Source: a virus. From it: DNA of 64,000 nucleotides. This document shows positions 710 to 41,673 of the stretch, piece after piece. Made by a program: the position numbers and the translations under genes. The stretch's first letter is position 1; the number at the start of each line of letters is the position of its first letter. Under the pieces are notes generated by a model. That model was not told the origin of the DNA. It did not search any database and saw only the letters and a list, made by a program, of their open reading frames with translations. The DNA is taken from positions 1-64,000 of the IMG/VR virus record IMGVR_UViG_3300034101_003146; one strand, given 5' to 3'.

Positions 710-2125
710 ATGTCAACATTACTTTTAGAAAAGAATATATTAATAGAATCTGGTATTAGAAAAATAAAAGAATTATCACAAAGATATGATAAGGCTAAAA
801 TCTATTTCCACCAGGATTTGGATGGTGTTACTTCGGCTCTTGGAATGAAAAAATACCTAGAAGATAATGGTATTAAAGTTGTTGATGCTGAAATTATACA
901 ATATGGTGACCAAGAATTTAGTATAAAAAAACCTATGGCTAAAGGTGATATTATGCCAGTTTTGGTTGACTTTGCCCACGGCAAACCAATGTTTGTTATA
1001 CATACGGACCACCATGATAAACAAGTAGGTGCTGAAGTGGGAGCTTCTAAATCTTTTAGACAGTCTAGATCAAATGTTGAAACTATATCACAAATAATGT
1101 CAACAAAAGAACTATTCCCTAGTTTCGATGTTAATATGATATCAACCATTGATAGTGCCAATTACACTAAAATGGGTATTACACCTGAACAAGTCATGAA
1201 TTATGTTTTTAATTTAGACAAAGAAAAAAGTTTAGAAGATAATAAGAAAGCTATGGCTCTTGTATGTAATAAACTTTTGTTGGCGTATAAAAACAAACCA
1301 AGATTTTTAGAAAGGTTGGTTATGGAATCAAGTCCTTCTTTATTGAACATATACCAAAACATAGTTAGAATGGCGAAAGAAGAAGGTTACGCGTCACCAG
1401 AATTAATGTCACAATATTCTAAAGAATATGGTGAAACTATGAAAAATAGTGAGAATGTTAAATATGATGAAGAAACAGGTATTATATCACAATATGGTGG
1501 TGGTTCCATGATTAAACCAGGTTCATATGATAGGTATGTACCATTTAAAAACTTTCCTGATGCTAATTTCTTAATCATTGCTTGGCCTTTAGGTCTTTTA
1601 CAAGCATCTTGTAACCCATTTAAACCTGAAAGAAGTATAAAGGGTATAAATCTGGGTGAAATAGCACAAAATGTGTTAAAAAAATACGAACAAGACTTAA
1701 AAAATATAATTATCTCTGTAGATACCTTAAAATATTTTGCTGAAAAACATAAATCTTTCTCTGAAGAAAGTGTTGGGTTTACATTTAAAGATTTGATGTC
1801 TTTATATGGTGATGTTGGTGAAGGTGTTAATGGTCTAAATAAAATCCCAGAAGGAGCGGCACCTGATTATACCGTTGAAAGATGGCAAAAAGCCTTAAAA
1901 GCTGTTATGGACAAACACTACTCAAGTTTGAGTGAAAGAGAAGTAAAGGCATTAAAAATGTTAACCATTACAGGTTGGGATATTATTCAAGCCAACAGTG
2001 GGGGACATAAATGTATAACTAACATATCGGGGTTAATGTATTTCGGTAAACAAGGTAAGGAGTGGTTATTGAAATTACAGGCAGAATTTAAAAATGAATT
2101 AGAACGTTTGGTTTTAAATCAATAA
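710..2125 (+). CDS. DHH-family phosphoesterase (RecJ/NrnA-like)
   Basis: A 471-residue protein. Motif I, HQDLDGVTSALG, is at about residues 34-45, a hydrophobic LVDF strand is near residue 85, and the signature HTDHHDKQ is at about residues 98-105. Near the C-terminus (about residue 432) NSGGHKCITNISG resembles the GGxH motif of a DHHA1 substrate-binding domain. The family contains Mn-dependent exonucleases and oligonucleotide or cyclic-dinucleotide phosphodiesterases. A DNA or RNA exonuclease, or removal of nanoRNA or signal nucleotides, are all plausible. Its 3' end overlaps the convergent endonuclease gene by 7 nt. It is longer than NrnA (about 320 residues), with a central region I cannot assign. 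Confidence 0.8.
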   Translation: MSTLLLEKNILIESGIRKIKELSQRYDKAKIYFHQDLDGVTSALGMKKYLEDNGIKVVDAEIIQYGDQEFSIKKPMAKGDIMPVLVDFAHGKPMFVIHTDHHDKQVGAEVGASKSFRQSRSNVETISQIMSTKELFPSFDVNMISTIDSANYTKMGITPEQVMNYVFNLDKEKSLEDNKKAMALVCNKLLLAYKNKPRFLERLVMESSPSLLNIYQNIVRMAKEEGYASPELMSQYSKEYGETMKNSENVKYDEETGIISQYGGGSMIKPGSYDRYVPFKNFPDANFLIIAWPLGLLQASCNPFKPERSIKGINLGEIAQNVLKKYEQDLKNIIISVDTLKYFAEKHKSFSEESVGFTFKDLMSLYGDVGEGVNGLNKIPEGAAPDYTVERWQKALKAVMDKHYSSLSEREVKALKMLTITGWDIIQANSGGHKCITNISGLMYFGKQGKEWLLKLQAEFKNELERLVLNQ

Positions 2126-3570
2126 AAATACTCATAAACTAAACTACCACAATCATATATTCTATAAATACCACGATTTAACATTATTTGATGTTCGGTT
2201 TTATTAGGATCATAACCTTCTTTAACTAAAACATCTTTTCTGAAATTATATCTGTTAATCCTATTTTTTTTTATTAAATAATAATAATTAGGTTTCGTTT
2301 TACTTTTCAAAGTGAAACCCAAGATTTCGTATAACCCACCAATAGACCAAGACCTATCGGCATAACTAACAACACTAATTGGTTTATATTTATCAAGAAA
2401 ATGTTTAAATAATTTTGAAGCACCACCTATAACGGATGTATTTAGTTTAGAACAAAATCTTAACATCTCCCAATAACCTAACTTACTTTTACTACCTAAT
2501 ACTTTACGTAACGAACCAAAACCCATAACCGAAACCAATTCTTCTTTATGATATAACCCCAACTTGACGGATGAGTTAACATTACCTTGTATATGGTTTT
2601 CATTTAAAAATTTTTTGTATATTTCCGGGTTTAGTTCTTTTATCGTACAATTACGTCCATAAATTTTATTAGGTACCGAATTTAATAAATTAGATATTCT
2701 AGATTTAACTATATCCCTTCTAATATCCCAATCATCTTCCCATATATGTATTAAATGTATACCTTTGTTTGTGAAATATTCTGTTTTATCTATATGGTAA
2801 TCTTTATATTTAAAAAACTCACTATGCCAATGTAAACCATTAAACTCAAAACCCAATTTTAACTCAGGTAAATATATATCAATCTCTTTACCTTCTTGTC
2901 TATATGACTGTATAATATCGGTATTTGTGTTCTTTTTAATAAAATCATAGATATCTAATTCCTTTAATGATTGATTCTCGTTAATTGGGTTACATATTGT
3001 ACATATATTATTTATGAACCTTTTTCTATTGTGATATAATTTTTTATCTATCACATATTCACCACCATGTTTATCACAATACTTTACGATGTTTTCATCG
3101 TCCATAGATATTATATTTTCTTGATGTATGTATTTACCATAAATAGTGTTTTTTCTTTTATTAACTATTTTTTCTTTTTTGTTAACATACTCTTCACTAT
3201 GACTAAAATGTTCAGTACCGTACTTATTTAACCATGTAGATTTTATTTTATTTTTAGTACTTTCGGTTTGGAAGTGGTGTTCAACTCCGTATCTTTCAAT
3301 GAAAGTTTTTTTAGTTTTATTTTTACAACAATCGACTGAACACGCATAAAAACCACCATTATTAATGGATCTTAAATACCTTCTATATGGGTGTTTTTTT
3401 ATGTTACCACAAACATCACATTTACAGTTTATTTTTATGTTACTACCACTATTTAATTGTGTGGGATGTATTTTAATAATATCATATGGTCTAACATCTA
3501 AACCAATAGATTTAAAATGTTTAATCTGTGCAGGATTAACTTTTATTTCAATTTCTGTATCTAATATCAT
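2119..3570 (-). CDS. Free-standing Vsr-like (EDxHD-type) homing endonuclease with GNAT-like C-terminal domain
   Basis: A 483-residue protein. The N-terminal third has CxxC pairs (CKCDVCGN, ACSVDCC) and KYGTEHF/RYGVEHHF repeats like those of phage homing endonucleases. The nuclease core, EIDIYLPELKLGFEFNG then LHWHSE, and IHLIHIWEDDW, is at about residues 225-285. It matches the Vsr-related EDxHD family described from fractured phage genes. After IYGRNCTIKEL (about residue 305) comes a domain with LGLYHKEELVSVMGFG, MLRFCSK and SYADRSWSIGGLYEILGF, which looks GNAT-like. That half is clearly paralogous to the gene at 40072-41673. It is inserted convergently beside the DHH gene and has an ATATTTAT element before its start. 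Confidence 0.8.
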   Translation of the reverse strand: MILDTEIEIKVNPAQIKHFKSIGLDVRPYDIIKIHPTQLNSGSNIKINCKCDVCGNIKKHPYRRYLRSINNGGFYACSVDCCKNKTKKTFIERYGVEHHFQTESTKNKIKSTWLNKYGTEHFSHSEEYVNKKEKIVNKRKNTIYGKYIHQENIISMDDENIVKYCDKHGGEYVIDKKLYHNRKRFINNICTICNPINENQSLKELDIYDFIKKNTNTDIIQSYRQEGKEIDIYLPELKLGFEFNGLHWHSEFFKYKDYHIDKTEYFTNKGIHLIHIWEDDWDIRRDIVKSRISNLLNSVPNKIYGRNCTIKELNPEIYKKFLNENHIQGNVNSSVKLGLYHKEELVSVMGFGSLRKVLGSKSKLGYWEMLRFCSKLNTSVIGGASKLFKHFLDKYKPISVVSYADRSWSIGGLYEILGFTLKSKTKPNYYYLIKKNRINRYNFRKDVLVKEGYDPNKTEHQIMLNRGIYRIYDCGSLVYEYFY

Positions 3571-8416: not shown

Positions 8417-9178
8417 CTATTTATCTATAAAAGTGTGGGTTGATAAATCAGATACTTTTTTAACCCTAATAACCGTATCACCCAATACACATCCTGGTTC
8501 TCCAATTAAAATTGGGTTGTTCTTTTTACGTCTTGAAAGAATTTGCGAAACCCTTTCAATTTCATCAGATCTACCAATAATTGGATCTATTTGACCGTCA
8601 GAGGCCAATTTAGTAATATCCCTACCAAAGTTATCTAGGATAGGTGTTGTTGACTTACCTTGTGAAGCTTTTTTAGCTTTTTTACCGTAGTCTTCAATTT
8701 CTTCAAAATCTCCTGTCATATTAATTATTTTTTGTTCTTTCAAATTTAATAAAGTTTCTTTAAAAGTTCTATAGGTTATACCCTGATTTCCTAAAACTTT
8801 TGTTCCATCTAATGTACGATTTTTTAATATAGATAAAACAATATGTTCAACATTTATTGTATCATCTCTTAATTTATCGGATTCCAACTCGGCTGAACTT
8901 AAAGCGTGTTTGGAGGATTCACTTAAGGGAACTATTTTTATTTCTACAATATTAGGGTTTTTTATTTTAAGTCTCAAGTAGCCTTCCAATTTTTCCATTA
9001 AATCTGTTACATCTGAACCCATTTCTTTAAAAACATCAACAGCACCGTTTTCTTTATCATTAAAAATGGCTAATAATATATGTTCAGGTTTAATTTTGGC
9101 GTCATTAAGTCTAATTGATTCCTTAAAAGCACTTTTAAGAATACCTTTTAATTTAGGTGTCATTTTTTTCATTATCAA
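8417..9178 (-). CDS. clpC: ClpC-like AAA+ unfoldase, N-terminal half followed by N-intein fragment
   Basis: A 253-residue product. Residues 5-150 form a Clp N-domain with two repeats ([18 protein letters not shown] and [15 protein letters not shown]). The D1 entry follows as [19 protein letters not shown] and ILIGEPG. The host sequence stops at Gly229 inside Walker A and is followed by [12 protein letters not shown], a typical intein block A with Cys1 and GDTxI. Only 24 intein residues are encoded before the TAG stop. The missing TGKTAIVEG is found as the extein start of the gene at 4945-7218. The unspliced protein could not bind nucleotide at D1, so trans-splicing appears to be required for function. 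Confidence 0.9.
8420..8491 (-). other. N-terminal fragment of split intein (IntN, 24 aa)
   Basis: This starts with the Cys codon at 8491-8489 directly after GEPG, contains block A (CVLGDTVI) and ends at the gene's stop. A 24-residue N-fragment is far shorter than the about 100 residues of DnaE-type split inteins, and resembles the atypically split AceL-TerL intein (about 25 residues). Confidence 0.88.
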
Positions 9179-9243
9179 TCAATTTTATTTCTTGATTAAT
9201 ATATTTAAAAATAAATAAAAGGAAAGTTTTATATATAAGGTCT

Positions 9244-9251
9244 ATAAATAC
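9244..9251 (-). promoter_or_regulatory. GTATTTAT variant of the late-type element before clpC N-half
   Basis: Minus-strand AGTATTTATAG lies about 65 nt before the start at 9178. One base differs from ATATTTAT. Confidence 0.3.
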
Positions 9252-9298
9252 TATCCTTTTTGGGATAAATTCATTAAGTTTTATAAAAAATTAATATT

Positions 9299-9505
9299 AT
9301 GGTCTATAAAAAAGTTACAATTTGGTTTAAAACAGACCCTACAGCTAGGGAATTTGACACGTCAGTTATTGCAAATGATTATGATAAAGTTTCTGTTACA
9401 ATTTCTGGTGATTATTTAATTCTATCACTACACAGTGAAGAAAGTGTTACAACAGAGGTACATCATTTAAGTACCATAAAAAATTGGATTACATATATGA
9501 GTTAA
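9299..9505 (+). CDS. Hypothetical small protein
   Basis: A 68-residue protein with a beta-rich pattern of alternating hydrophobic residues (KVSVTISGDYLILSLH) and no membrane segment or known motif. It is the first gene of a run of small plus-strand genes leading to thyA, and ends one base before the next ATG. I do not recognise the family. Coding is supported by codon use like its neighbours and by tight packing. Confidence 0.55.
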   Translation: MVYKKVTIWFKTDPTAREFDTSVIANDYDKVSVTISGDYLILSLHSEESVTTEVHHLSTIKNWITYMS

Positions 9506-9506
9506 T

Positions 9507-9809
9507 ATGTTTATAGAGAGAAAAGAAAACGAAAACGGTGTAATTTCTTGTTTATTTAAATCATCAAATATTTTGGCGTCTGATTATAATAAAGATAAAA
9601 AAGAATTAGTTGTTACATTTAATGCAGGACGTAGATACACATATTCAAACGTAGATCCTAAAGATTATCATAGGTTTGAAATGGCTGAAAGTCAGGGTGA
9701 AATGTTTAATAAACATATTAAAAAATACCCTACAGTGAAAAATCCAGATGTAGACCCATCCGAATTGTTAAATAAAGTAAATCAGATTATAAATGAAATT
9801 AAAAAATAA
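9507..9809 (+). CDS. KTSC-domain protein
   Basis: A 100-residue protein whose residues 20-70 fit the KTSC pattern: SSNILASDYNKDKKELVVTF, then NAGRRYTYSNVDPKDYHRFEMAES and GEMFNKHIKKYP. KTSC domains are short beta-rich modules common in phage and bacterial proteins. RNA- or lysyl-tRNA-synthetase-related roles have been proposed, but none is proven. The last 30 residues form a probable helix. It overlaps the next gene by 17 nt. Confidence 0.75.
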   Translation: MFIERKENENGVISCLFKSSNILASDYNKDKKELVVTFNAGRRYTYSNVDPKDYHRFEMAESQGEMFNKHIKKYPTVKNPDVDPSELLNKVNQIINEIKK

Positions 9810-29836: not shown

Positions 29837-32140
29837 TTAAAAATAAATTTCTTTTATAACACCTTCTAATTCTAAAGGTGACATACTTTCCCATTCGGTT
29901 ATATTGTTAGATATAACAGGTTTGCCACCATTTTGTTTATCTACCGCAATTGTAATATGTGGGGTTTTATTATCAATAACTAATTGTGTATCTACCTTGA
30001 CTGCCATGACATTATCTAACTCACCTACATGTGTAACCAATAAATCTATTGACTGACCTAATAGTGGTTTATATATTTCTTTTATTGGTCCCATATTGAT
30101 TGTCATATGGTGAGCTATTATATCCCAACCTTCAGGTATGTTTAAACTATTAATCAATTTAGTTCTAGATTGTTCCGTCAATACAACAGCCGAATAAGAT
30201 ACTTTTTTAACCTCTTCTTTCATTAACTTTTTAAACATCCCCCTTTCTATCCTATCTTTTTCTATACCTATTTCTCTACCTTTAAAACCTTGTTTCATAA
30301 TTTCTTCACCAGATGTAGTTATCTTATATTTTATAAAAGCTTCAATTAATTTTGGGTTTATATTATTTATTTGGCCAAAAATTCTTAAAGTATCATCATC
30401 CATTCTAATGGCGTCATATCTTTCTTTAAGTTTATATAAATCACCACTATTAGTATTAAAGAATTTTATTAAGAAAGCAATTTTCTTACCTTCTTCAGAG
30501 GTATATTTAAGTGTGTCAATTATGTAGTTTTCAACCAACTTAGGTTCATTACTTATAAGTAAAGTTGCTATAAGTACGATAGGATTTCTAGTTTCTATCA
30601 AAGGATCAGTTTTAACTACAAGTCTACCAAATATCCAATCCCACAGGTTTAGATTGGTTATCATTTGTGTGAAATAACCAACTGATTGTGATTGTTTAAT
30701 ACCTTTTAAAAACTCATCTCTAATCCTTTCTTGTGACAATGGTAAACCGTTACCACTTATTGGTGTTTTATCTTTAGTAATGGCATTTACGATATCTTTG
30801 TCTAATTTGGATCCAGTTCTTGATGCGAACCTAATTGACCTAAGTATACGTAATTTATCCTCATCAAAACGTTCCGATGCTGAACCAACAGTCCTAACCA
30901 AGTTTCTTTCTATGTCATCAATACCACCAACTAAGTCAACCACTTCACCTTTATCTATATCATAAAATAAAGCATTAATGGTTAAATCTCTACGTAATAC
31001 ATCTTGGTCGATTGAGGTGAATTCAACAGAATCTGGCCTACGTCCTCTCCCCAAATCTTTCCGGAAAGTGGCAATTTCATATTGACCGTCTTCGGCAACA
31101 ACGTTAACAATACCAAATTGTTCACCAACATTTATGGTTTGGTACATATTTAACATGGATTTAATTTCTTCTGGTTTAGCATTAGTAACTAAATCAAAAT
31201 CTTTAGGTTCTTGACCTAATAATAAATCCCTTACCGCTCCACCAACAACATATAATTCATAACCATTATTTTTAAAGATTTGGTTCATTTGTAATACAGA
31301 TTTTGGTAAATCCATATTTAATTTTTTTCTAATAACATTTTCTGTCATTGTAGGTTTTCTATATAAAGGGTTTTTAACAAATATTATTACATCTTCACCT
31401 TCATTCTTATCGTATTTACTAATATCTTTTAAAAAAGACCAACAATTACCATCACAATCTTTATTGTTATGATTACGGTAATTAACCTGACCAAAATAAT
31501 TTGAACCCAAGTCATCCCTACCATAAAACTTAACCAAAATTAATTCTAAACCACTATTAGATAAACCTTCATCAATTATGATACCTTCATCCCAATCAAA
31601 ATTAGATAGTTCATCACTACCATCGATAATAACTTCAAGACCTTTTTTTAATATACCGTAAGTTGGTGTGATGTATTCTTTATCGGGTTCATCGTCACCT
31701 ATAATATCATCAAACCATTCTTGGTTATCCACAACACTCTCATTTATTTTGGTTGAAACTGATATTTTTAACGTATCTTTACTTTCTTCAAATTCAGTAT
31801 AATCTCTCATAAATGACCAACATCTTTTACCCCCACAATCCCCTTTATAATTATCCCACAGCGGTGATGACATATTTATGACATTTTCTTCAAAATTTTT
31901 ATCGTTGAATTTAACTAAAATTACATCATTACCTCTAAACGGTGTAATACCAATAATTACACCAACACTTTTGTCAAAAATAACGTCAATATTGTCTTCA
32001 TCATAACCACTAATTAGTACAGAATCACCAACGTTTAACATATCTTTTGATACGGCAGGGACAAAATCAATATTCAGTGTATCTTTAACCCATTCAAAAT
32101 CATCAAATTCTTTTAACATTTTTTTAACACAATCTTTCAT
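29837..32140 (-). CDS. CCA-adding/poly(A) polymerase fused to a 2H phosphodiesterase
   Basis: A 767-residue, apparently three-part protein. The start MKDCVKKMLKEFDDFEW is tag-like. Residues 25-260 hold two related beta modules, each closing with C-x-G-x-x-C-W-S-F (about 108 and 232). Residues 285-560 are a class II tRNA nucleotidyltransferase: LYVVGGAVRDLLLG, PKDFDLVT, VLRRDLTINALFYD and FDEDKLRILRSIRFASR. Residues 640-767 hold two H-x-T motifs (HHMTINMG and PHITIAV) of a 2H phosphodiesterase, as in tRNA ligase CPD domains. The combination suggests RNA 3'-end repair: opening of 2',3'-cyclic phosphate, then CCA addition. It is divergent from the prohead protease. Confidence 0.82.
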   Translation of the reverse strand: MKDCVKKMLKEFDDFEWVKDTLNIDFVPAVSKDMLNVGDSVLISGYDEDNIDVIFDKSVGVIIGITPFRGNDVILVKFNDKNFEENVINMSSPLWDNYKGDCGGKRCWSFMRDYTEFEESKDTLKISVSTKINESVVDNQEWFDDIIGDDEPDKEYITPTYGILKKGLEVIIDGSDELSNFDWDEGIIIDEGLSNSGLELILVKFYGRDDLGSNYFGQVNYRNHNNKDCDGNCWSFLKDISKYDKNEGEDVIIFVKNPLYRKPTMTENVIRKKLNMDLPKSVLQMNQIFKNNGYELYVVGGAVRDLLLGQEPKDFDLVTNAKPEEIKSMLNMYQTINVGEQFGIVNVVAEDGQYEIATFRKDLGRGRRPDSVEFTSIDQDVLRRDLTINALFYDIDKGEVVDLVGGIDDIERNLVRTVGSASERFDEDKLRILRSIRFASRTGSKLDKDIVNAITKDKTPISGNGLPLSQERIRDEFLKGIKQSQSVGYFTQMITNLNLWDWIFGRLVVKTDPLIETRNPIVLIATLLISNEPKLVENYIIDTLKYTSEEGKKIAFLIKFFNTNSGDLYKLKERYDAIRMDDDTLRIFGQINNINPKLIEAFIKYKITTSGEEIMKQGFKGREIGIEKDRIERGMFKKLMKEEVKKVSYSAVVLTEQSRTKLINSLNIPEGWDIIAHHMTINMGPIKEIYKPLLGQSIDLLVTHVGELDNVMAVKVDTQLVIDNKTPHITIAVDKQNGGKPVISNNITEWESMSPLELEGVIKEIYF

Positions 32141-36728: not shown

Positions 36729-38498
36729 ATGGGATATTTATTAAAATCAGGTGAAGTTGGTAATATCGGATTAAAACATCAAAAAGCAATCCGTGAGGCA
36801 ACTGTAAACAAATGGGAATCTTTAGGGTTCTTAGAAGGTCTTGAAGGCCATATCAGAGAAAACATCGCTTTGTTATATGAAAACCAAGCGTCAACTCTTA
36901 TCAGTGAAACATCTACCGCAGGTGGAGGATCTACTGGATCTTTCGAAACTGTAGTGTTTCCAATTGTAAGACGTGTATTCTCTAAATTATTAGCTAACGA
37001 TATCGTATCGGTTCAAGCTTTAAACTTACCAATCGGTAAATTATTCTACTTCGTTCCAAAAACGTCTGATAGAGTTGATGACGCAGCTTTCTTAGCTGGT
37101 ACAAACGGTGGTAAATCTATACATAGAGGTTTAGCTGTAGCTACTTGTGTTACATGTCCAGAATCTACATTCAGTGGATGTACTAAAAATCTTTATGATA
37201 TTTTCTATAACGATGGTTTATACGATCAATCAAAAGGTGAAATTACTATTAAAGTTGTTTCTGGTACAGCAGTTGTGTTAACAGCTTGTACAGGTGGTGT
37301 TGAATACGTAGCAGGAAAAACTCCAGCAGCTTCTGACGGTTCATTACGTTACCAAAAATTTGAAGTTAAAGGATTTAGCAGTACATCTCCTGGACGTTTA
37401 GTTGGTCCTGATGGAAATGAAATGGATACTGAATCTTTCTTAGCTTCATTAACAGTAGTAGCTAACGCTCAAGTATTAGACCCTTCTGGAAATGTGATTT
37501 TCAACGTAGGTGACCAAATTCCTTTCCGTTTAGTAACTCAAAAATATGGTAGAGGTATTGTTGATTACGGTGATATCTGTTCAGCAGACGGTAAATTATA
37601 CATCGAATTAGATTTTACAAGTCCAAATTGTGTTTCTTGTTCAACTAAAACATTTGATGGATATATCGGTGCTAGTTACACAGGAACTTCTGTAACATCA
37701 ACGTCTTTTGTAGCTATCGCTTGGAGACAATACGCTGATTTAGAGGCTGAATCTAACATGGGTGAGGTTTCTTTTGAACTTGAATCTGTAACTGTATCTG
37801 TTACTGAACGTAAGTTAAGAGCTACTTGGACACCTGAATTAGCACAAGATGTTAGTGCATTCCACAACATCGATGCTGAGGCTGAATTAACAGCTTTATT
37901 ATCTGAACAAGTTGCGGCTGAAATTGACCGTGAAATCTTAATGGATTTACGTAAAGGTGCAGCATGGCAATTACGTTGGGATTATAACGGATGGAAGCGT
38001 TTACCAAACAACAATGGTTACACTCAAAAAGATTGGAACCAAACTTTGATGACGGCTGTAAACCAAATCTCAGCTCAAATCCACAAATCTACTTTAAGAG
38101 GTGGTGCTAACTTCGTAGTTGTATCTTCTGAAGTATCAGCAGTTCTTGATGATTTAGAATACTTCCACGTATCTAACGCAGCTCCAGAACAAGACCAATA
38201 TAACATGGGTATTGAAAGAGTTGGTTCATTAAATGGTCGTTATACTGTTTACCGTGACCCATACGCTCCAGCATACTCTGTGATTATCGGTCATAAAGGT
38301 AAGTCATTACTTGACACTGGTTACATTTACGCTCCGTATGTACCAATGCAGTTGACACCTACAATGTACAATCCGTTCAACTTTGTACCGGTTAAGGGTA
38401 TAATGACACGTTACGCCAAAAAGATGGTGAATAACAGGTTCTACGGACATATCCGTGTTGACGGTTTACGTACATTTGACGTAAGAGAATTACGTTAA
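36729..38498 (+). CDS. Major capsid protein (T4 gp23-like)
   Basis: A 589-residue protein with the gp23 opening GFLEGLEGHIRENIALLYENQASTLISE|T. Cleavage after LISE (about residue 62) would remove the N-terminal delta region. GSFETVVFPIVRRVFSKLLANDIVSVQALNLPIGKLFYF follows, the HK97-type start. Near the C-terminus are VVSSEVSAVLDDLEYF and YVPMQLTPTMYNPFNFVPVKGIMTRYAKKMVNNRFYG. It is about 70 residues longer than T4 gp23. A Cys-rich insertion (CVTCPESTFSGC to NCVSCSTKTFDG, about 140-315) may be a surface domain. Codon use is clearly optimised. A strong terminator follows. Confidence 0.95.
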   Translation: MGYLLKSGEVGNIGLKHQKAIREATVNKWESLGFLEGLEGHIRENIALLYENQASTLISETSTAGGGSTGSFETVVFPIVRRVFSKLLANDIVSVQALNLPIGKLFYFVPKTSDRVDDAAFLAGTNGGKSIHRGLAVATCVTCPESTFSGCTKNLYDIFYNDGLYDQSKGEITIKVVSGTAVVLTACTGGVEYVAGKTPAASDGSLRYQKFEVKGFSSTSPGRLVGPDGNEMDTESFLASLTVVANAQVLDPSGNVIFNVGDQIPFRLVTQKYGRGIVDYGDICSADGKLYIELDFTSPNCVSCSTKTFDGYIGASYTGTSVTSTSFVAIAWRQYADLEAESNMGEVSFELESVTVSVTERKLRATWTPELAQDVSAFHNIDAEAELTALLSEQVAAEIDREILMDLRKGAAWQLRWDYNGWKRLPNNNGYTQKDWNQTLMTAVNQISAQIHKSTLRGGANFVVVSSEVSAVLDDLEYFHVSNAAPEQDQYNMGIERVGSLNGRYTVYRDPYAPAYSVIIGHKGKSLLDTGYIYAPYVPMQLTPTMYNPFNFVPVKGIMTRYAKKMVNNRFYGHIRVDGLRTFDVRELR

Positions 38499-38526: not shown

Positions 38527-38560
38527 AAAAGAGGGACTATAGTCCCTCTTTTTTTTTACA
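38527..38560 (+). terminator. Strong terminator after the capsid gene
   Basis: A perfect palindrome AAGAGGGACT/AGTCCCTCTT around TATA, followed by nine T. Confidence 0.9.
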
Positions 38561-38615: not shown

Positions 38616-40031
38616 ATGGCTAAGAAAATAGTTATACCAGAAGATGAAGTTAGACAAATAATAAAACTATATACTGAAGATAAACTAGGTACGCCAACTT
38701 TAAGTAGTATGTTTAATTACCATAAATCGATAATTAATAGAACATTAAAAGAAAATGGTGTTGAATTGGATACATCTGGTAGGAGATATTTAGGTGGTAA
38801 AAAAGTGTCTGACTCTAAATATTATAAAAAAAATAAAGATAAAATACTAGAAAGATATAGTGAATGGTCTAAAGAAAATAGAAGTAAACTTAGGGAGTAT
38901 CATACAAAATGGAGGGAGGAGAATAAAGATAAATTAAATAAAAAGAAAAGGGTGTATGAAAAAAACAAAAAGGACTTAGACCCAAAATATAAATTAAGTT
39001 CATATACCCGTACGGCTATATATACTTGCCTAAAAGAACGTAATATTAAAAAATATAGTAAAACCTTTAATCTATTACCCTATACCCTAGAAGAGTTAAT
39101 GGCCCATCTTGAAAAACAATTTTCAAATGGTATGTCATGGGATAACTATGGTGAGTGGCATGTGGATCACATAAAACCAATATCTAGTTTCAATATAAAA
39201 GAAGAAGGTGATAACCAATTCTTACAATGTTGGTCACTTAAAAATCTAAGGCCTTTATGGGGCGAAGAGAATATATCAAAAGGTAATAAAATATTGGCAC
39301 ACCAATATAGGATAAGAATAGAAAAAGAAGTAGAAGAAAAAGAAAAAATAGGTTTTGATTACACAAAAGCTAGTTTAAAAAATTGTATAGTAAAACCAAT
39401 AGATAGGTTTTTATGTGAAAAAATTATAAAAGAGTATGAGTGGTTGGGTTATTTACCTAAATACACTAAATACTATTTCGGTTTATTTTTTAATATAGAC
39501 GGTGAAGAGTTTTTGGGTGGTGTTGTTGCCTACCAACCGGAGTATGGTGATAATATAGGTGTTTGGGATAAATACGGTTTCACGGGTAAAATAATACAAT
39601 TAAGTCGTGGTGTTTGTCTATGGTGGACACCAAAAAATTCAGCCTCATTCATGATATCTAAAACGTTAAATTGGGTTAAAAACAATACTGATTATGAGAT
39701 TGTGTCAGCAACTGTTGATCCTAACGCAGGTGAAATTGGTACCATATATCAATCATTAGGTTGGTATTATGTTGGTTGTATGTCAGGTAATTTAAAATCA
39801 AATGGTGAAGAAATAATACGTTATGGTTATAAAATAGATGGTAAAATTTATAATCAAAGACATATAAGAAAAATGATAGGTACTGCTAAAAAAGAAGAGG
39901 TTTTAAAACATTTCCCTAATGTTGAAATTTTTAATGCGGGAAGGAAAAGAAGGTATTTTAAATTTATTAAAAATGAAGATTTACATAAAAAATCAATAGA
40001 AAATATAATTAAAACATACCCTAAAAGGTAA
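38616..40031 (+). CDS. HNH endonuclease fused to a Mom-like GNAT domain
   Basis: A 471-residue protein in three parts. Residues 1-55 are a helix-turn-helix (IIKLYTEDKLGTPTLSSMFNYHKSIINRTLKENGVEL), followed by a basic linker. Residues 140-230 are an HNH nuclease: WHVDHIKPISSFN, then LKNLRPLWGEENISKGNK. Residues 255-471 look like the Mom-type GNAT family. KYYFGLFFNIDGEEFLGGVV, LSRGVCLWWTPKNSASFMISKTLNWV and ATVDPNAGEIGTIYQSLGWYYVG all match conserved Mom-like segments as I recall them. Mom of phage Mu modifies adenine in DNA. Here the fused domain might mark phage DNA against the adjacent nuclease, or be part of target recognition. It is inserted just behind the capsid gene. Confidence 0.7.
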   Translation: MAKKIVIPEDEVRQIIKLYTEDKLGTPTLSSMFNYHKSIINRTLKENGVELDTSGRRYLGGKKVSDSKYYKKNKDKILERYSEWSKENRSKLREYHTKWREENKDKLNKKKRVYEKNKKDLDPKYKLSSYTRTAIYTCLKERNIKKYSKTFNLLPYTLEELMAHLEKQFSNGMSWDNYGEWHVDHIKPISSFNIKEEGDNQFLQCWSLKNLRPLWGEENISKGNKILAHQYRIRIEKEVEEKEKIGFDYTKASLKNCIVKPIDRFLCEKIIKEYEWLGYLPKYTKYYFGLFFNIDGEEFLGGVVAYQPEYGDNIGVWDKYGFTGKIIQLSRGVCLWWTPKNSASFMISKTLNWVKNNTDYEIVSATVDPNAGEIGTIYQSLGWYYVGCMSGNLKSNGEEIIRYGYKIDGKIYNQRHIRKMIGTAKKEEVLKHFPNVEIFNAGRKRRYFKFIKNEDLHKKSIENIIKTYPKR

Positions 40032-40065: not shown

Positions 40066-40073
40066 ATATTTAT
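40066..40073 (+). promoter_or_regulatory. ATATTTAT late-type element overlapping the start codon of 40072 gene
   Basis: The last two bases of the element are the A and T of the ATG at 40072. If it is a promoter, its transcript cannot start before this codon, so the gene would be read from upstream transcripts or from another start. Confidence 0.3.
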
Positions 40074-41673
40074 GGAACAAGATATAGTCAAATTTTATAC
40101 AGAGGAAAAACTATCAATTAACCAAATATGTGAAAAATTACGTATAGGTAAATTAAAAGTTAAAGATGCTTTAATTAAGAACGGTGTAAAATTAAATAAA
40201 AGAGGCAGTAAAGTTAAACATATAATAAAAGATATTGATTATAGTGTTTACGATAAAAAAGTTCTTAAATGTAAGAAAACTGGTAAAATAATAAAAGACG
40301 TTTTAAATAGGTCAGGCTTTGTTGTTATACATTTAAAAAAAGTTTATGGTATTGAATTACCATCAACGTTCAAAAGGAATATGATAACAAAAACCACTGG
40401 TAAGTTATGGTATGAAGAATATTTTGATTTAATAGATGATGTTGTAATTGAAAAAGATAAGTGGGTTTGCCCTATATGTGATTGGTCTACTAACGATGTT
40501 AAAAATTTGGGGGGTTTTATAACCAAACACGTTAGGTCACATGATTTTAATAATATTAAAGAATTCTTCGAATACTACCCAACAGTTAGGATAGATTTAA
40601 AAGAGGAAAAAATATTTTTAGATAACCCAAAATCTTTTATAAACTGTGGGATATGTGAACAACCTTTTAGATCCATATCTAACACACATTTAAAATCACA
40701 TAATATAACATTAGAAGAATATAAAACTAAATATGGTGAGGTATTTTCTGAGGATTTTAAAAAAGAGTGTAAATCTTATTTAGATGTAGGTAGAGGTAAT
40801 ATTGAAAATAATTTCACATCTAAACATCAGAAAGAAATATCTGATTACATACAAAGTTTAGGTGTGACGGTTTTAAATAATCATAAAAAATCTTTAAACG
40901 GTGTTGAAATTGATGTCTATATCCCTGAACTAAAGATAGGTTTTGAATATAATGGTTTGTTTTGGCATTCAGAAAAAATGGGTAAACATAAAAACTACCA
41001 TTTAGATAAACAAAAATTAGCAAACAAACATGGTATAAAACTATATCACATTTTTTCTGATGAATGGATTAATAACCCTGAAATTGTAACGAAAAAAATT
41101 AAACATATTTTAAAGTTATCTGATAATAAAATATATGCAAGAAATTGTGTCATAAAAGAAATTGATTCTAAAGAAAAAGAAGATTTTTTAAACAAAAACC
41201 ATATACAAGGTGGTGATAAATCTAAATATAAATTAGGTGCATTATATAACGACGAATTAGTTGCTGTTATGACTTTTTCTGAATTAAGAAATGTTCTAGG
41301 TTCTAAAAAAGAAGATGGTGTCTATGAATTAGTAAGGTTTTCCTCCAAAAATGTTGTAGGTATTGCATCTAAAATGTTAAAATATTTTATTAAAAAATAT
41401 AACCCAAAAAAAATAATAAGTTATGCTGATAAAAGATGGACTTCAAGTGATAATGTATATGAAAAAATCGGTTTTAAATTAGTTTCAGAAACTAAACCTA
41501 ATTATTGGTATATAATGGGTGACAGCAAAAGATATCATAGGTATAATTTTAGGAAGGATTTACTAGTTAAACAGGGTTATGATAAAAATAAAACAGAAAA
41601 AGAAATAATGACTGATAAGGGTTATTTGTTTGTTTGGGACTGTGGTAATTATAAATACGAATGGAATAGTTGA
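40072..41673 (+). CDS. Vsr-like (EDxHD-type) homing endonuclease with HTH and zinc-finger N-terminus
   Basis: A 533-residue protein. Residues 1-45 are a helix-turn-helix (LSINQICEKLRIGKLKVKDALIKNGVKL) similar in place to that of the HNH gene upstream. A CPICDWS...H...H zinc-finger-like module (about 129-155) and an INCGICEQPFRSISNTHLKSH module (about 200-220) follow. The nuclease core EIDVYIPELKIGFEYNGLFWHSE and LYHIFSDEWI is at about 280-340. The C-terminal GNAT-like part (about 355-533: IYARNCVIKEI, ELVRFSSK, ISYADKRWTSSDNVYEKIGF) is paralogous to that of 2119-3570. It probably targets a site near the capsid gene in related phages. Confidence 0.8.
   Translation: MEQDIVKFYTEEKLSINQICEKLRIGKLKVKDALIKNGVKLNKRGSKVKHIIKDIDYSVYDKKVLKCKKTGKIIKDVLNRSGFVVIHLKKVYGIELPSTFKRNMITKTTGKLWYEEYFDLIDDVVIEKDKWVCPICDWSTNDVKNLGGFITKHVRSHDFNNIKEFFEYYPTVRIDLKEEKIFLDNPKSFINCGICEQPFRSISNTHLKSHNITLEEYKTKYGEVFSEDFKKECKSYLDVGRGNIENNFTSKHQKEISDYIQSLGVTVLNNHKKSLNGVEIDVYIPELKIGFEYNGLFWHSEKMGKHKNYHLDKQKLANKHGIKLYHIFSDEWINNPEIVTKKIKHILKLSDNKIYARNCVIKEIDSKEKEDFLNKNHIQGGDKSKYKLGALYNDELVAVMTFSELRNVLGSKKEDGVYELVRFSSKNVVGIASKMLKYFIKKYNPKKIISYADKRWTSSDNVYEKIGFKLVSETKPNYWYIMGDSKRYHRYNFRKDLLVKQGYDKNKTEKEIMTDKGYLFVWDCGNYKYEWNS

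Follow-up and report, generated by a model that had tools for sequence, protein, structure and literature searches.

Free-standing homing endonucleases cut the gene that adjoins them, and the escape of the carrier is usually ascribed to differences in the sequence of the site. The locus described here raises the question of what role a Mom-type DNA modification domain might play in a nuclease encoded directly behind the gene for a major capsid protein. The window that we analyzed comprises 64 kb (64,000 nucleotides) of the 69,778-base virus record of a T4-like phage. On its + strand, the genes for terminase, portal, head maturation protease, and gp23 follow one another in this order, and a spacer of 117 bases separates gp23 from a gene whose product we call P0001. 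The main features of the window, with coordinates counted from its first base, are as follows.

36729..38498, + strand: gp23 major capsid protein gene (Pfam Gp23, 1.6e-71; PHROG 138)
38430..38436, + strand: putative break site in gp23, at codons N-N-R, 63-66 bp before the stop, placed by analogy with relatives
38530..38557, + strand: terminator-like hairpin and T run (AGAGGGACTATAGTCCCTCTTTTTTTT) in the spacer that separates the fusion gene from gp23, read directly from the sequence
38616..40031, + strand: HNH-Mom fusion gene, encoding P0001 (471 aa, ATG start)
38616..38795, + strand: N-terminal three-helix, HTH-like region, residues 1-60 (AlphaFold helices 9-20, 26-33, and 37-46)
38799..39296, + strand: helical part and endonuclease-VII-like HNH nuclease, residues 62-227 (PHROG 1035 and conservation)
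39294..39350, + strand: junction, residues 227-245 (~227 is where Mom-less HNH relatives stop; model confidence is low at 218-225)
39351..40028, + strand: Mom-family GNAT domain, residues 246-471 (Pfam PF25680; Foldseek best match, 8bv8)
39645..39647, + strand: codon of S344, aligned with Mu Mom S124, alongside R331, D368, and Y378
40072..41673, + strand: gene for P0002, a Hef-type homing endonuclease with HTH, PD-(D/E)XK-like nuclease, and C-terminal Mom-like GNAT (PHROG 3339)
2119..3570, - strand: third nuclease and Mom-like gene, Hef type, 483 aa (DUF7487, PD-(D/E)XK-like, GNAT), far from gp23

The head gene cluster also contains, on the - strand at 29837-32140, a 767-aa open reading frame with a tRNA nucleotidyltransferase match; despite this match, no tRNA gene was found in the window.

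An HNH nuclease joined to a Mom-family domain

The original prediction for this gene, a fusion of an HNH nuclease with a Mom-like GNAT domain, was borne out in both halves, the Mom half by profile score and by fold. Residues 69-241 match the endonuclease VII family PHROG 1035 (1.2e-14), and E180, W181, H182, D184, H185, and N210, which hold the nuclease motif H182-x-D184-H185 ... N210, are conserved among the 30 proteins compared. The Pfam HNH profile alone scores 14.2 bits on P0001, under its cut-off of 21.4 bits. Residues 1-60 are modeled as a helical region and form a probable DNA-binding part, whose similarity to the N terminus of Hef is marginal (28% over 50 aa; E 0.035 in one comparison).

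The C-terminal part, which had been described as Mom-type, falls within the Mom family proper. In the HMM comparison that had been suggested as a check, residues 258-470 scored 68.8 bits against Pfam Mom (PF25680; cut-off, 27.1 bits; E 6.7e-19), covering profile positions 3-202 of 202, and the same residues match PHROG 1384, "Mom-like DNA modification protein" (3e-19). A Foldseek search of the P0001 model against the PDB returned not an unrelated fold but the Mu Mom crystal structure, 8bv8, in first place (E 3.9e-10; TM 0.71 by target length), with ordinary GNAT enzymes ranking below it (3e-4 and worse). A phmmer search of P0001 against the PDB gave no real match, and NCBIfam likewise gave none. 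The AlphaFold model, based on 56 sequences, has two confident domains (mean pLDDT, 87, with low values for residues 218-225 and the C-terminal end); its pTM is 0.53, and the relative placement of the domains is therefore unsure.

The entry 8bv8 is titled "inactive mutant S124A," and sequence alignment places P0001 S344 at Mu Mom S124. Together with R331, D368, G375, Y378, and Y447, this residue is kept in all 21 HNH-Mom and Mom-GIY-YIG domains of our tree and in 57 or 58 of the 58 unfused Mom domains. The conservation of R331, S344, D368, G375, and Y378 in fused and unfused proteins alike thus leaves no sign of active-site loss upon fusion. The H58-Y59 pair, a trait of Mu Mom that lies outside the Pfam PF25680 definition, is absent from P0001, which has E275-W276 instead, and for this reason its chemistry may differ from that of Mu. 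Having E-W in place of H-Y is a trait of the subfamily, fused or not, the first position being common to 51 of the 58 unfused members.

Selection has acted on the protein as a whole. Full-length relatives of P0001 in other contigs (86, 83, 70, 58, and 57% identical) argue against an assembly artefact as the source of the fusion, and purifying selection extends across the entire reading frame. Identity between the window and three distant fusions (L176, L177, and L181) is 67-73% for Mom, against 52-65% for HNH. A simple counting method gives the Mom part a dN/dS of 0.06-0.27 in every pair compared, with some pairs near silent-site saturation. As the best-kept part of the fusion in distant pairs, the Mom domain is unlikely to be a useless appendage. 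Judged from these sequence comparisons, it is complete, probably catalytically competent, and likely to be an enzyme, and its family suggests that its substrate would be DNA.

The two halves also have free-standing relatives whose boundaries coincide with the junction. Of the 80 best viral loci, 77 encode Mom-less HNH relatives of 223-233 aa (one of them cut by the contig end), which end at about residue 227, where P0001 continues. Unfused Mom relatives are mostly ~250-270 aa long and begin "M-AHQ-x-x-IR"; a motif of this type directly follows the end of the HNH part in P0001 ("...NKILAHQYRIR"), in which "LAHQYRIRIEK" is the counterpart of the N-terminal "MEAHQYKIRKEK" of other Mom proteins. 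Since free-standing relatives end and begin at this point, the HNH and Mom parts were once separate proteins. The unfused gp23-linked HNH proteins (L004-L080), which are probably UniProt A0A6J5L795, are ~50-60% identical to P0001 over residues 1-227 and occupy the same site but, unlike P0001, have no Mom domain.

The gp23 site as a candidate homing target

At the loci examined, in dozens of phages, Mom-less HNH genes lie ~75-150 bp behind gp23, and a hairpin also occurs in those related spacers that were inspected. Two loci, L009 and L095, share 99.8% identity on both flanks (1.8 kb upstream, 5.1 kb downstream), but L009 is longer by 1.2 kb, in which lie the HNH gene and a repeat of the final ~65 bases of gp23. 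Second gp23 tails are found in four loci (L009 5866-7077, L029 5901-8080, L032 5902-7155, and L094 8785-9710), in all of which the homology begins at about the same place, N-N-R, 63-66 bases before the stop. Three of the four hold an HNH gene, and the L094 insert holds another gene. Tails that start at N-N-R are what the repair of a break there would leave, and they thus point to gp23, at its 3' end, as the probable target.

This empty-site and tail evidence comes from Mom-less HNH relatives and from the L094 insert, which is without any HNH gene; no empty-site pair was found for a Mom fusion. By sequence comparison, it is well supported that the HNH lineage is mobile and aimed at gp23, and homology predicts that P0001 itself would cleave gp23. 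The suggestion in the original prediction that the gene could be a homing device is in turn well supported by its location, the empty-site comparison, the duplicated target tails, and the Mom-less HNH relatives at the site. Its other suggestion, a selfish restriction-modification gene whose Mom domain would modify and thereby protect DNA, is plausible in view of the conserved residues and the selection on that domain.

Two further observations concern the same region. Between the two gp23 tails of L094, positions 8860-9630 encode a 257-aa GNAT protein that is unrelated to Mom, with no recognizable nuclease; it had at first been read as an unfused Mom at gp23, a candidate that was rejected because it is a different GNAT protein. 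A match of the gp23 site to the Mu Mom consensus was considered and given up, since a motif this short will turn up by chance.

Mom domains joined to other nucleases

The Mom half as a single query against viral contigs recovered only three near-identical loci; going further required a profile built on five Mom domains. With a subfamily profile and two junction profiles, we collected HNH-Mom fusions from 11 contigs in addition to the window, and at least 16 contigs in which Mom is instead followed by GIY-YIG (PHROG 314 homing endonuclease; Pfam GIY-YIG). In 27 of 27 contig matches to these two forms, gp23 lies directly upstream. The 123 distinct gp23 contexts gathered in total were obtained with fusion queries and are not an estimate of frequency.

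In a phylogeny of Mom domains, which was a quick search and has long branches elsewhere, HNH-Mom and Mom-GIY-YIG form sister groups (support, 89), the former with 6 rows (support, 100) and the latter with 15 (support, 98); both stand beside unfused Mom proteins of other phages. The opposite order of their domains indicates that the two are separate fusions. A further HNH-Mom fusion, on a different Mom branch, is present in L269, from a Bacteroidales bin. Hef-like GNAT domains are followed by GIY-YIG in L186 and L253, and one Mom-GIY-YIG protein and one Hef-type protein have a segment in common (41% over 58 aa).

The open reading frame next after P0001 belongs to the Hef type. Its product, P0002, matches the PHROG 3339 "homing endonuclease" family (4.3e-104), with MTES_1575 below the cut-off, and the best PDB match of its C-terminal GNAT by Foldseek is again Mu Mom, 8bv8 (3.8e-7). 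Hef-type relatives of P0002 occur in 406 phage records and at up to 12 places in single Campylobacter phages. P0002 and the gene at 2119..3570 are also nuclease and Mom-like fusions, and these two genes, like gp23 as the putative homing site, were not part of the original prediction. Taken together, the collected proteins suggest that Mom has joined at least three kinds of nuclease, two of them always at gp23, and that these cutters carry their own DNA-marking tool.

Several other arrangements were seen among the same contigs. L194 (1469-4665) has a tandem pair of Mom-GIY-YIG genes behind a single gp23, and in L255 (2872-4860; Acidobacteria bin) the fusion partner of Mom is a region with an N6/N4 DNA methylase at its end. 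In L200 (2423-3690) and L229 (2198-3666), a PDDEXK_15 or HNH_5 nuclease gene, respectively, directly precedes an unfused Mom, start and stop touching. An unfused Mom relative in phage f2b1 (L163, 2866-3729) lies between the ribonucleotide reductase alpha and beta genes, an interval that is a spot for homing endonucleases in T4-like phages.

Possible roles of the Mom domain and known systems

On balance, we lean slightly toward a reading in which P0001 acts at the gp23 site as a free-standing homing endonuclease, with a Mom domain that serves as a DNA-marking second part similar to that of a restriction-modification system. The HNH part would cut the 3' end of gp23 in phages without the gene, and repair of the break would copy the P0001 gene in behind gp23. 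A complete Mom-family domain would have been taken in as a second enzymatic part, which would put an acyl-derived group, presumably from acyl-CoA, on the DNA of the carrier phage. Marking would shield the DNA of the carrier from the nuclease that it encodes, from restriction by the host, or from both, and the unmarked DNA of a co-infecting rival would be cut, so that homing would work like a one-protein restriction-modification system. Self-protection of this kind, predicted here from sequence, is useful only if the DNA of the carrier is marked before that of the rival. Self-marking fits the repeated fusion of Mom with nucleases, protection from host restriction fits the known role of Mom, and both may be true. 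Many HNH relatives reside at the gp23 site without Mom, an observation that speaks against this reading. More tentatively, HNH, GIY-YIG, and PD-(D/E)XK homing nucleases may each have acquired a Mom or Mom-like domain that acylates, and so marks, the DNA of the carrier. They would then form a class of modification-armed homing endonucleases in which homing runs as one-protein restriction-modification, with the REase-Mom fusions of jumbo phages as members.

Homing endonucleases often recruit DNA-binding modules, and this habit, along with the replacement of the Mu H-Y pair by E-W, would be compatible with a catalytically dead Mom domain that serves an ordinary HNH homing endonuclease as a DNA-binding or dimerization appendage. 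We consider this improbable: R331, S344, D368, and Y378 are found in every fused and nearly every unfused copy, the Mom domain is under strong constraint, and there are other candidate DNA-binding parts, namely, the HTH-like N terminus and the segment common to the Mom-GIY-YIG and Hef-type proteins. A somewhat stronger competitor, although still an unlikely one, is that the Mom domain is active but is cargo, shielding the phage from host restriction and thereby keeping a selfish gene from loss, with no role in homing. The established function of Mom in Mu is protection from host restriction (PMC7824862), unrelated phages encode unfused members of the same Mom subfamily, and Mom is the best-conserved part of the fusion. 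Cargo alone, however, does not explain why Mom is fused in a single chain to nucleases of several folds instead of being encoded by a separate gene, and a search of ~160 HNH and gp23 loci turned up no unfused Mom gene next to gp23.

The fusion could also be a restriction-modification weapon without homing, in which the nuclease would attack the DNA of the host or of a superinfecting phage and Mom would guard the phage itself. Such a system was proposed by Iyer et al. in 2021 for the jumbo-phage proteins in which Mom domains are joined to nucleases of the REase fold (PMC7824862), and the two-gene nuclease and Mom neighbors of L200 and L229 are in keeping with it. Yet the fusions are always behind gp23, Mom-less HNH relatives sit at the same place, gp23 tails are duplicated, and PADLOC, a defence search, gave no match to P0001. 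The jumbo phage PA5oct, to which Iyer et al. ascribe five momylating enzymes (PMC7824862), carries five Hef-like homing-endonuclease genes, and the structural matches of P0001 include a PA5oct protein that bears the name "putative homing endonuclease." We therefore give a weapon of this sort little credence.

If P0001 is indeed a homing endonuclease that marks its carrier, a DNA-modifying domain fused to a nuclease would be a different route to carrier escape, homing endonucleases would be linked to restriction-modification, and some genes now counted as phage momylation or defence systems would be homing endonucleases. No paper on a fusion of Mom with a homing endonuclease was found in the literature searched. 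As far as that literature shows, three things are new: the HNH-Mom and Mom-GIY-YIG types of fusion, the occurrence of both at the gp23 site alone among the contigs recovered, and the evidence for homing.

P0001 resembles Mu Mom (a methylcarbamoylase; 8bv8, PF25680) in its GNAT fold, its full-length profile match, its R, S124, D, and Y residues, and its C-terminal YPK; it differs in its fusion to a nuclease, in E-W for H-Y, and in an identity of only ~20% over the structural alignment. Like the free-standing homing endonucleases of T4-like phages (seg, mob, and Hef), it is encoded in an intergenic position that adjoins an essential gene. To our knowledge, no Mom-type domain has been described in the T4 seg (GIY-YIG) and mob (HNH) enzymes. 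In T4, segD sits between genes 23 and 24 (PMC2988022). The Hef type shares a Mom-like GNAT with P0001 but has a PD-(D/E)XK-like nuclease where P0001 has HNH. The REase-Mom fusions of jumbo phages likewise combine a Mom-family domain with an endonuclease under a restriction-modification-like logic, differing from P0001 in nuclease fold and in having been read as restriction and not as homing (PMC7824862); the words "homing" and "GIY" are absent from the main text of that study (PMC7824862). Given five Hef-like genes and five momylating enzymes in PA5oct, a comparison by gene number and name, it is probable that the genes published as REase-Mom fusions are those of Hef homing endonucleases.
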